Source: Longimicrobiales bacterium
Lineage (GTDB): Bacteria; Gemmatimonadota; Gemmatimonadetes; Longimicrobiales; Gaopeijiaceae
Reading direction: 5' to 3'
DNA: 64,000 nt
NCBI GenBank assembly: GCA_028823235.1
Contig: JAPKBW010000005.1
Location: 62,001 to 126,000, forward strand
A program made the translations under genes and the position numbers. This document shows positions 37,330 to 41,198 of this stretch, in pieces. Each line of letters begins with the position of its first letter. The first letter of the stretch is position 1. The notes below the pieces were generated by a model. The model was not told the origin of the DNA. It was given only the letters and a program-made list of their open reading frames with translations, and ran no database searches.

Positions 37330-38517
37330 GTGATCTGTCCAAGCGTTCGTCGGCTCTTCATCGCGACACTACTGATCACGGCGTGCGCTGTGACTCCCGG
37401 AGCTACCCACGGTCAGGACCTGGACCGGCCCCGAGCACGAGACCTCGGCATCGTCGTAGGGGTCTTCGATCCGGGAACGCACAACGCGATCACCGATGTA
37501 GCCGGGGTCCGAGTCGGACACACGACCGTCATCGAAGAGCCAAACGTGCGCACGGGGGTGACCGCCATCCTTCCACACTCGGGCAACGCCTACCTGTCAC
37601 GCGTTCCCGCAGCAATCCACGTCGGCAACGGGTACGGAAAGCTTCTCGGAGTGACCCAAGTCCGAGAACTCGGAGAAATGGAGACGCCGATTCTGCTCAC
37701 GTGTACGCTGTGTGTATGGAAGGCAGCGGACGCCATGGTCGAGTGGATGATCGGTCTCGATGGCATGGAAGCGGTCCGTTCTCTGAACGCCCTAGTGGGC
37801 GAAACGAACGATGGTGGTCTCAACGACATCCGCCGACGACCCATCACGCCCGAGCATGTTGTCGCAGCGCTCGAGAACGCTTCGGCCGGTCCGGTAGTCG
37901 AGGGTGCAATCGGAGCCGGTGCTGGCACGGTCGCGTTCGGCTGGAAAGGTGGGATCGGGACGAGCAGCCGAGTGCTCCCCGAGAGCCTTGGCGGCTATAC
38001 CATAGGGGTCCTCGTGCAGTCTAATTTCGGCGGCATCCTCCAGATCGATGGAGCGCCGGTCGGTCAGGAACTCGGCCAGTACGCCTTCTCCTCCCAGGTC
38101 GGATCTGATGCAGACTATGACCCACGGGCTGATGTGCAGGAGTGGGGTTCGATCATGATGGTCGTAGCCACCGATGCGCCGCTCTCCGACCGCAATCTGG
38201 AGCGGGTAGCGCGCAGGGCGGTCATGGGCCTGTCGCGCACCGGCTCTTACGCCAGCAACGGTTCAGGCGACTACGTCATCGCGTTCTCGACCTCCGAAGC
38301 CGTCCGAAGGAGTCCTTCCGGGGGAGTGCGGAGCTTCGACTCGGTCTCGAACGGCGGGATGAGCTCTCTCTTTGAAGCGACCATCGAGGCAACGGAAGAA
38401 GCGATCTACAACTCGCTCTTCAAGGCGGAGACGGTCACCAGCAACGGGATGACCGTTGAGGCGCTCCCCGTCGAAGCCACCGTTGAGATCCTCAGGCGTT
38501 ATGGGGTGGTTCGATGA
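37330..38517 (+). CDS. P1-family (S58, DmpA-type) aminopeptidase, secreted
   Basis: 395 residues from GTG 37330. A signal peptide is visible (LFIATLLITACAVTPGATHG). The S58 body begins ARDLGIVVGVFDPGTHNAIT with VRVGHTT, and contains LGEMETPILLTCTLCVWKAA, GETNDGGLNDIRRRP, FGWKGGIGTSSRVLP and IGVLVQSNFGG. DmpA-type enzymes self-cleave before an internal nucleophile and release N-terminal amino acids. The exported form would act in the periplasm. Its stop overlaps the next gene's start (ATGA), so the alkylmercury-lyase-like gene is translationally coupled to it. Confidence 0.9.
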   Translation: MICPSVRRLFIATLLITACAVTPGATHGQDLDRPRARDLGIVVGVFDPGTHNAITDVAGVRVGHTTVIEEPNVRTGVTAILPHSGNAYLSRVPAAIHVGNGYGKLLGVTQVRELGEMETPILLTCTLCVWKAADAMVEWMIGLDGMEAVRSLNALVGETNDGGLNDIRRRPITPEHVVAALENASAGPVVEGAIGAGAGTVAFGWKGGIGTSSRVLPESLGGYTIGVLVQSNFGGILQIDGAPVGQELGQYAFSSQVGSDADYDPRADVQEWGSIMMVVATDAPLSDRNLERVARRAVMGLSRTGSYASNGSGDYVIAFSTSEAVRRSPSGGVRSFDSVSNGGMSSLFEATIEATEEAIYNSLFKAETVTSNGMTVEALPVEATVEILRRYGVVR

Positions 38518-39185
38518 GCCGACCCAGCGACTTCGACTGGTCGGTCCGAGCACACATCTATCGCAGCTTCGCCGAGACGGGTCAGGCACCGGCGATTCCC
38601 GAACTCGCCGCGCTGGTCAGTGGCACCGAGCACCAGGTTTATACCTCCCTCGAGGTGCTCTTCGCGGCACACGAAGTCGCGCTAAGACACGATGGCGGAG
38701 GCGTCTGGATGGCCAACCCGTTTTCCGGCGTGCCGACGGACTTTGAAGTCGAGACTCCCTCAATGACGTGCTTCTCGCCCTGTGCCTGGGATGCTCTGGG
38801 CGTGGGAGCGATTCTCGACACGGACGCCTGGACGCGCACGCACTGCGCCGAGAGCGGGGAGGCCATGGAATTCGGCGTTCGGGAAGGCCAGGTCGCTGGA
38901 GACGGAGTGATCCACCTGGTCACCCCGATTGGGCAGGCGTGGAAAGACATCGGCTTCACCTGAAGCCACTACCTCGCCTTCCGGTCGGAAGGGCATGTTG
39001 AGCAATGGTTGACCCGCACCGGGCACCCCCGGGGCGCCGTTCTGTCACTCGAGCAGATGTGGGCGCTCGTGCAGCCCTGGTACGCGGGCCGGATATCACC
39101 CTCATGGAGAGGCCGCAGCACGGCACACGCGCAGGCGATTCTCGACGGCGTCGGACTCGAAGGGCCCTTCTGGAAGCTCGGATAG
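38514..39185 (+). CDS. Alkylmercury lyase (MerB)-like protein with in-frame TGA at the second catalytic cysteine; candidate selenoprotein
   Basis: 223 residues if TGA 38961-38963 is read through. Residues 1-80 form a winged-helix-like N-terminus as in MerB (PAIPELAALVSGTEHQVYTS). C90 and D93 sit in FSPCAWDALG and C111 in TRTHCAESG. The spacings C-x2-D and C-x20-C equal those of MerB Cys96, Asp99 and Cys117. Position 150 (TGA) follows DIGFT and precedes SHYLAFRSEGHVEQWL, exactly where MerB has catalytic Cys159 before its FFAS helix. The frame then runs through GAVLSLEQMWALVQPWYAGR and GVGLEGPFWKLG to TAG 39183. A SECIS-like hairpin follows the TGA. Alternatives: nonsense mutation or a sequencing error from TGC. 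MerB cleaves carbon-mercury bonds; relatives may have other substrates. No merA is nearby. Confidence 0.7.
38961..38992 (+). promoter_or_regulatory. Candidate bacterial SECIS element
   Basis: After the TGA (38961-38963), arms CCTTCC (38977-38982) and GGAAGG (38987-38992) form a perfect 6-bp stem closing a GGTC loop (38983-38986). Nineteen bases separate the TGA from the loop. Bacterial SECIS hairpins lie within the coding sequence just behind the UGA and have a G, usually followed by U, in a short apical loop. In E. coli fdhF the loop also contains GGUC at nearly this distance. SelB binding here is inferred, not shown. Confidence 0.6.
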
Positions 39186-39208: not shown

Positions 39209-40414
39209 TCAGGATTCCAGCGCGTACCCCACTCCAGAAGCGAGTACTGACTCGATCTCTTCCCTGGCAAGCCCCGCCTCTTCGAGAACCTCGCGGGTGT
39301 GCTCACCGAAGAGCGGCGCGCCACGATCTGAAACGACGGATCGGTCATCGATCTTCACCGGATTCCCGACGGACCGGACCGGACCAAGCCTGCTGTGATC
39401 GACCTCCAATACCATGTCACGAGCGAGCGTTTGTGGGTGCTCGAGCATCTCTCCAATCGATGCGATCGGCCCCGCGGGGACTCCGGACTCGGTCAAGCGA
39501 GCGAGCCACTCATCAGATTTACGCGCGCGGAATTCCGGCGAAACCTCTTGGATCAGAGCAGGGAGGTTTCGCATCCTGTCCGCGTTGGTGCCGAAGCGTT
39601 CGTCCTCGCCGAGGTCAGGGCGGTCGATCGCCGTTGTCAGGCTGCGCCATGTGCCCTCATTGGACGCACCGACATTGATCCAGCCATCGGACGTTTCGAA
39701 CGCCTGATACGGAGCGGCCAGCGGGTGCGCCGTACCTAACGCACCTGGCGACGTCCCTGACGCGAGCGAAATAGCGCTCTGCCAATACGTGTGCGCGATC
39801 CCGGCCTCCAGCAGAGACGTGTCAACAAGGCGCCCCTGCCCCGTCCTTGCACGCTCGAAGAGCGCGGACGCAATTCCAAAGGCAGCAAGAATACCAGCGG
39901 TGATGTCCGTGACCGGCGCGCCGACCTTCACGGGGCTCCGCCCACCTCCCTCCCCGGTTACGCTCATCAACCCCGAGTAACCTTGCGCAATCAGGTCGAA
40001 TCCACCTTGATCGGCCAACGGCCCGGTGCGCCCGAAGCCAGTGATCTGGCCGTAAACGAGCCGTGGATTCGCCGCCGATAGCGTCGCCCAGTCTAGCCCC
40101 ATCCGCTCCATGGTCCCGACGCGGAAATTCTCGATCACGACATCAGCATCGGCGAGGAGTTTACGGACGATCTCCACGCCCTCCTCGGAGCGCAGATCGA
40201 GAGCGATCCCCCGCTTGCCTCGGTTGAGCATCATGAACGCCGCTGACTCTCCGTCCACATCAGGCGGTACGAAACCCCTCGTCCCATCCCCGTTCGGAAG
40301 CCGTTCGATCTTGATCACGTCGGCGCCCATGTCGGCGAGCATCAGCCCGCAAACCGGGCCAGCCATGATATGCGCCAGCTCGATGACCCGTACGCCCTGG
40401 AGCGGTCCAGTCAT
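39209..40414 (-). CDS. CaiB/BaiF family CoA transferase (type III)
   Basis: 401 residues from ATG 40414, four bases after the crotonase stop; earlier in-frame codons overlap that gene. Landmarks are LQGVRVIELAHIMAGPVCGL, DVIKIERLPNGDGTRG, MMLNRGKRGIALDLRSEEG, VVIENFRVGTMERMGLDW and the nucleophile region GGFDLIAQGYSGLMSVTG, with the catalytic Asp. Type III transferases move CoA between carboxylic acids. It pairs with the crotonase just upstream and a TRAP transporter, which suggests uptake and CoA activation of an organic acid. Its substrate is unknown. Confidence 0.93.
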   Translation of the reverse strand: MTGPLQGVRVIELAHIMAGPVCGLMLADMGADVIKIERLPNGDGTRGFVPPDVDGESAAFMMLNRGKRGIALDLRSEEGVEIVRKLLADADVVIENFRVGTMERMGLDWATLSAANPRLVYGQITGFGRTGPLADQGGFDLIAQGYSGLMSVTGEGGGRSPVKVGAPVTDITAGILAAFGIASALFERARTGQGRLVDTSLLEAGIAHTYWQSAISLASGTSPGALGTAHPLAAPYQAFETSDGWINVGASNEGTWRSLTTAIDRPDLGEDERFGTNADRMRNLPALIQEVSPEFRARKSDEWLARLTESGVPAGPIASIGEMLEHPQTLARDMVLEVDHSRLGPVRSVGNPVKIDDRSVVSDRGAPLFGEHTREVLEEAGLAREEIESVLASGVGYALES

Positions 40415-40418
40415 CAGA

Positions 40419-41198
40419 TCAATGCCCGCGGAAATCGGGGTCCCGCTTCTCGAGAAAGGCACGCCGCCCTTCGAGGTAATCCTCGGTTTCAAAGGCCTCT
40501 TGGGCCTCGTCTCGCTCCGTGTCTCTGACCGGCCGCCGCTCTAGGACCCGGCGAACGAATTTCTTGTGCCAGCGATTCACCAACGGCGCGCCCGTTGCGA
40601 TGCGAGCGACGAGGCCATATCCGTGCTCGACGACGGCAGCATCAGGATGAACGCGGTTCACCAGACCGCATTGCTGAGCCCGTTCCGCGTTGATGAGATC
40701 TCCGGTCAGGAGGATCTCGAGGACGGGAGCCGCTCCGAGGAGTCTCACGAGTGGCTCGAGTTCCTCGTGAGACATCGTGAGCCCGAGGCGATTGATCGGG
40801 GCACCAAAAAGGCTGGACTCACCGCAAACGCGAAGATCACAACATGCCGCGATTTCAAGGCCTCCTCCGACGCACAATCCTTCGATGAGCGCGACGGTGG
40901 GGTGCCTGCACACCCGAATCGCATACATGGCAGCGGCGATTGCGTCCGAGTAGATCCGTACATCCTCCGGAGTTGAACGCTGTGTATCAAAAGCCCGGAT
41001 GTCAGAACCGGCCGAAAACGCCCTCCCTCCAGTGCCCCGAACCGCAATGCACCGCACCTCGTCAATCGCCGAGATCTCACGAAAAGCGGCGGCCACAGCT
41101 ACCCAACCGTCGACGTCAAGAACATTGTGCCGTTCCGGACCATCGAACCGAACGGTCGCGATCGGCGTGTCGACCTCGACGTGAACGAGAGCACTCAT
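40419..41198 (-). CDS. Crotonase family protein lacking the second catalytic glutamate
   Basis: 259 residues from ATG 41198, which overlaps the DctM stop (ATGA). The frame is open much further upstream, but that part lies on DctM and is not protein-like. The oxyanion block is EGLCVGGGLEIAACCDLRV with the first Glu. The second block reads FGAPINRLGLTMSHEELEPL, so the usual P-E-V/I-x-L-G glutamate is replaced. The AGSDIRAF substrate loop is kept. Hydration is therefore doubtful; isomerase, hydrolase or decarboxylase activity is as likely. It belongs with the CoA transferase. Confidence 0.88.
   Translation of the reverse strand: MSALVHVEVDTPIATVRFDGPERHNVLDVDGWVAVAAAFREISAIDEVRCIAVRGTGGRAFSAGSDIRAFDTQRSTPEDVRIYSDAIAAAMYAIRVCRHPTVALIEGLCVGGGLEIAACCDLRVCGESSLFGAPINRLGLTMSHEELEPLVRLLGAAPVLEILLTGDLINAERAQQCGLVNRVHPDAAVVEHGYGLVARIATGAPLVNRWHKKFVRRVLERRPVRDTERDEAQEAFETEDYLEGRRAFLEKRDPDFRGH

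Follow-up and report, generated by a model that had tools for sequence, protein, structure and literature searches.

A gene at positions 38514-39185 (+ strand) of the window, the whole 64,000-nucleotide stretch of DNA that was analysed, belongs to a family of MerB-like proteins with a predicted selenocysteine (Sec) at the position of Cys159, a catalytic residue of the organomercurial lyase MerB. What is new about this Sec-MerB family is that it is a separate clade of MerB-fold selenoproteins with an unusually wide distribution.

The Sec-MerB gene and its surroundings

The open reading frame runs from ATG 38514 to TAG 39183-39185 and holds 223 codons, one of which (codon 150, positions 38961-38963, + strand) is an in-frame TGA, the proposed selenocysteine codon. 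Under the standard code, translation stops after 149 residues. The first-pass annotation had described a frame open for 73 residues beyond this TGA, had placed the TGA at MerB Cys159, and had matched Cys90, Asp93 and Cys111 to MerB Cys96, Asp99 and Cys117. Coordinates and frame are as claimed, and alignment to MerB2 and MerB agrees: the TGA falls on Cys159, Cys90 (codon 38781-38783, + strand) on Cys96, Asp93 (38790-38792, + strand) on Asp99, and Cys111 (38844-38846, + strand) on Cys117, where relatives often carry D, Y, F or V.

A gene for a peptidase of family S58 (DmpA-type; 37330-38517, + strand) lies directly upstream, and its stop overlaps the Sec-MerB start (ATGA). Downstream, a convergent CoA-transferase family III gene (39209-40492, - strand) has no known mercury-related function. 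The pairing with the S58 peptidase is syntenic only in the Gemmatimonadota clade, where its retention makes translational coupling possible.

Conservation of the TGA codon

In the scan of the phylum, 70 of 395 genomes gave a family match, and TGA stands at aligned codon 150 in 52 genomes, within the aligned motif W-D-D-I-G-F-T-U. Wider relatives, nearly all from metagenome-assembled genomes (MAGs), were found by scanning named genomes with the family alignment; an earlier scan of genome contigs with a single protein as query returned no match. Among the best 80 of 215 relatives, TGA occupies the Cys159 codon at all 80 loci kept. By record title, these loci belong to Gemmatimonadota, Acidobacteriota, Chloroflexota, Actinomycetota, Marinimicrobia, Planctomycetota, Desulfobacterota, Pseudomonadota, Calditrichota and Verrucomicrobiota, so the Sec-MerB family spans at least ten bacterial phyla. 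A local sequencing error or chance was considered and rejected, given TGA at the same codon in the 52 genomes and in the best 80 of 215 relatives. These independent genomes also speak against a misread TGC at 38961-38963.

The part of the protein beyond the TGA is under selection as well. The ratio pN/pS is about 0.3-0.5 before the TGA and 0.2-0.5 after it, indicating similar protein constraint on both sides. Residues after position 150 are conserved in the homologues, contrary to what the first-pass annotation had named as a counter-indication.

Selenocysteine machinery and the SECIS-type hairpin

The search for Sec genes proposed with the original observation found them all: the host genome carries tRNA-Sec (TCA anticodon), selA, selB and selD, each over its cut-off. 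Given this machinery, and the conservation of both the UGA and the SECIS-type hairpin described below, UGA 150 is almost certainly decoded as selenocysteine, as judged from comparative sequence evidence.

The hairpin lies at 38977-38992 (+ strand) and encodes part of the peptide AFRSEG. Its stem is CCTTCC/GGAAGG (38977-38982 / 38987-38992) and its loop is GGTC (38983-38986). A bacterial SECIS is a stem-loop 3' of the UGA, with its loop about 16-37 nucleotides away and a G within the first two loop bases. The predicted hairpin fits this description: the loop starts 20 nucleotides past the TGA and reads GGTC in 89 of 100 sequences and AGTC in 6 of 100.

Codon choice and covariation were tested in 100 sequences below 80% identity, with expectations taken from the same genes. 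From +5 to +9 downstream of the TGA, the codons are nearly fixed as CTC (93%, expected 41%; P 1e-15), TTC (99%, expected 74%; P 1e-12), CGG (98%, expected 30%; P 1e-45), TCG (99%, expected 36%; P 1e-41) and GAA (79%, expected 34%; P 1e-19). After these, the strongest signal among the 60 scanned codons comes from ACC, the Thr codon immediately before the TGA, beside the decoding site (P 1e-10). Stem pairs 15-28, 14-29 and 13-30 are paired above shuffles, with C-G, U-A and G-C as alternatives. Standard pairing is found at 14-29 in 88 of 100 sequences (shuffles 69.8, sd 2.3), where U-A, C-G and U-G all occur, and at 15-28 in 98 of 100 (shuffles 94.1, sd 0.4). The peptide FRSE, which the hairpin encodes, is lost from most Cys homologues, so its conservation in the Sec form likely reflects a constraint on the RNA. 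The window hairpin taken alone is no more stable than shuffled sequence (z 0.47); folding of a single sequence is uninformative here because synonymous shuffles keep FRSE, and FRSE forces most of the stem. Support for the putative SECIS is comparative, coming from synonymous fixation and covariation.

The host selD gene (L195, C10:120945-121871) itself holds one in-frame TGA. SelD selenoproteins carry such a codon in selD, and the host SelD is probably a selenoprotein, judging by this codon.

Selenocysteine and cysteine forms

tRNA-Sec scored over the cut-off in 50 of the 52 genomes that carry the TGA form, against 3 of 11 with a Cys form (Fisher P 1.7e-6). The two TGA-form genomes without a match (G123, G342) are draft assemblies. 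In a tree built by a quick method, in which many forks are weak, the phylum's Cys homologues fall into a single clade with support 100, which lies within the Sec family. This CxxC-type clade (L048-L053, L055-L057 and the plasmid copies H1 and H2) has Cys at the Sec position. It differs from the Sec family in that Asp99 is replaced by Cys and Cys117 by Leu or Ile, and it occurs mostly in genomes without tRNA-Sec. Such a Cys/Sec split is the pattern that would be expected if Sec had been replaced as the Sec machinery was lost. The comparison of homologues that the first-pass annotation had suggested gives TGA throughout the Sec family and Cys in canonical MerB and in the CxxC clade. Its proposal of selenocysteine at position 150 has held up, on the strength of the Sec genes, the conserved TGA, the fixed hairpin, Cys homologues residing mostly in Sec-less genomes, and the fold.

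Family membership and predicted fold

The Pfam MerB model (PF03243, gathering cut-off 27 bits) matches residues 70-190 of the read-through product with 82.4 bits (E 3.4e-23), a match that spans the TGA. Two of the three catalytic residues of MerB, Cys96 and Asp99, are present in the window protein, and the third, Cys159, is the proposed Sec. The Cys96 and Asp99 equivalents are near-invariant across the Sec form; the Cys117 equivalent is variable within the family.

An AlphaFold2 model of the whole read-through product, with the TGA residue set to Cys, reached pLDDT 97.8 and pTM 0.92. Its best match in the PDB is mercury-bound MerB2 (Z 19.5, rmsd 3.0 over 189 residues). Mercury-bound MerB follows with Z about 15-15.5, and the next unrelated fold has Z 5.5. 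By this model, the read-through product is a MerB-fold protein.

The window protein thus shares with MerB (PF03243; R831b MerB; B. megaterium MerB2, PDB 5c17) its fold, Cys96, Asp99, Cys117 and the third catalytic position. It differs in having Sec for Cys159, in an identity of only about 20%, and in falling below the NCBIfam cut-offs for MerB sensu stricto (36.7 against 193 bits for NF009710; 29.2 against 200 bits for NF033555). No NCBIfam model of June 2026 scores the window protein above its own cut-off. The designation "organomercurial-lyase homologue" in the first-pass annotation stands as a statement of homology, by Pfam and by fold; the lyase activity remains putative.

Relation to SaoL

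SaoL (NF040728, motif CU) is the one MerB-like selenoprotein that the reviews PMC13188914 and PMC9312934 list. It is described as a MerB-like organometallic lyase (Haft and Gwadz 2023, J Bacteriol 205:e0025922, as cited in PMC13188914). A literature search for selenocysteine MerB, alkylmercury lyase or organomercurial lyase returned the SaoL entry alone (PMC9312934, PMC13188914), the source paper being covered through its citation.

In two sequences that exceed the SaoL cut-off, Sec aligns at Cys159 (L169, DTCUNVMNFF; L170, AGCUNIMNFF). Sec at this site therefore already exists in a published related family, and the caution of the first-pass annotation about a possible prior report was justified. 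That reading was right on Sec and on homology, and missed both the hairpin at 38977-38992 and the SaoL precedent. The two families are alike in being MerB relatives with Sec at Cys159, and the hairpin of L169 lies at the same distance as in the Sec-MerB family. They differ in several respects. SaoL has Cys-Sec ("CU"), whereas the Sec-MerB family has Thr-Sec (Thr in 100 of 100 sequences below 80% identity) and a conserved C-terminus ending in GxFWxL. Against the SaoL model NF040728 (cut-off 140 bits), the window protein scores 25.5 bits and the best relative scanned 48.7. The two form separate clades in the quick tree. Annotation of the neighbours by Pfam showed no ABC transporter adjoining the Sec-MerB gene, and by this measure no partner of the SAO operon (SaoB, C, P, T, X) was seen there. 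The idea of a MerB relative with Sec at Cys159 has a precedent; Sec-MerB is a separate and far wider clade. One further MerB relative (L172, genome G430) has Thr-Sec at Cys159 and groups clearly with neither SaoL nor the Sec-MerB family.

Double-TGA relatives in Desulfobacterota

Some relatives from Desulfobacterota carry TGA at both the Cys96 and the Cys159 positions. They fall into at least three groups: L104 (6001-6666) and L168; L173, L175, L180, L182, L183, L186 and L187; and L174, L176-L179, L184, L185 and L188. The same kind of hairpin lies downstream of the second TGA and, in many cases, of the first as well. These genes are candidates for double-selenocysteine proteins. No published report of double-TGA MerB relatives was found, in a search that covered the SaoL source paper through its citation.

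Proposed function and alternative explanations

The gene probably encodes a MerB-fold selenoprotein that works like MerB. In MerB, Cys96 and Cys159 are the ligands of the organomercury cation, and Asp99 protonates the carbon. By analogy, an alkyl- or aryl-mercury cation would be caught between Cys90 and Sec150; Asp93 would donate the proton to the carbon so that the hydrocarbon leaves, and Hg(II) would then be passed to thiols. In place of the second ligand, Cys159, there would be a selenolate, which is ionised at neutral pH and has a mercury affinity above that of a thiolate. Such a ligand would help at trace levels of organomercury, which would explain the near-invariant Sec. On balance, organomercurial cleavage is the function we favour as the physiological role.

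The genomic setting departs from that of MerB. Sec-MerB lies outside a mer operon, and MerA is usually absent. No mer genes adjoin the Sec-MerB gene, whose neighbours are the S58 peptidase, the CoA transferase, UbiA and a TRAP transporter. The search of neighbourhoods across phyla found no partner gene common to different phyla. MerA exceeds its cut-off in 4 of 20 Sec-form genomes tested and is not found in the window's own genome, so disposal of Hg(II) by MerA would usually be absent.

This setting, with no mer operon, mostly no MerA and no shared neighbour, would also suit a MerB-fold selenoprotein with another substrate, such as an organometal(loid) of arsenic, tin or selenium, or one that acts on a different carbon-metal bond. 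The distance of the window protein from MerB by curated cut-offs points the same way, and the name "Sec-assisted organometallic" leaves this open for the SAO system. Against it, the family retains the complete Cys96/Asp99/159 set, which is what conservation of the MerB reaction would predict, and the nearest structural matches are mercury-bound MerB proteins. Another substrate is judged unlikely, though it is the strongest of the competing explanations.

Cys90 and Sec150 might instead sequester or sense mercury or another soft metal without turnover. Selenium has a high affinity for mercury, and Hg(II) bound to a selenolate may be held too firmly to be let go; the double-TGA relatives would fit such a role. 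The Sec form, however, retains Asp99, the proton donor that only cleavage requires, and the Cys-form clade has lost it, which makes pure binding improbable.

Turning from function to decoding, a TGA that acts as a real stop would leave a 149-residue truncated protein or a pseudogene, as standard translation indeed predicts. This is very improbable: across phyla, both the TGA and the 73 residues that follow it are conserved, pN/pS is below 0.5 and synonymous codons are fixed. A stop codon that had arisen at random would decay, and TAA or TAG would occur in its place as well. Reading of the TGA as tryptophan or another amino acid through a changed code or a suppressor is hardly credible, since no supporting evidence was found, relatives align Cys here, several homologues use TGA as a true stop, and Sec genes are present.

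Significance for surveys of mercury demethylation

At least one recent environmental survey of merB discards sequences without Cys159 (PMC12874090). Since surveys that require Cys159 and standard-code gene callers that stop at TGA both exclude such genes, the Sec-MerB family is missed by design. Should its members cleave methylmercury, demethylation capacity has been overlooked in Gemmatimonadota, Acidobacteriota, Chloroflexota and Actinomycetota. Because the selenolate would sit where mercury is held during catalysis, a comparison of Sec with Cys within one enzyme would directly test what selenium contributes to carbon-mercury cleavage. A broader picture is speculative and, taken as a whole, doubtful: a mer-independent, selenium-dependent organomercury lyase, spread among soil and marine bacteria from ten or more phyla, could account for substantial uncounted breakdown of methylmercury, with some Desulfobacterota holding mercury between two selenocysteines.

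Existing annotations of related genes

Two kinds of relatives deserve mention. A plasmid gene of Sphingomonas panacis (L189), a plasmid gene of Paraburkholderia sp. PGU19 (L191) and L048-L053 encode CxxC at the Cys96/Asp99 positions and are without Cys117. The Sphingomonas panacis protein is annotated as an organomercurial lyase despite Cys in place of Asp99, and no mer genes lie near it. On plasmid 1 of Rubrobacter radiotolerans (L190, about 103195-103464), a 90-residue protein annotated "organomercurial lyase" appears to be a Sec-family member that is degraded or has a disrupted frame and is cut short at the TGA (YDDLVFAU).
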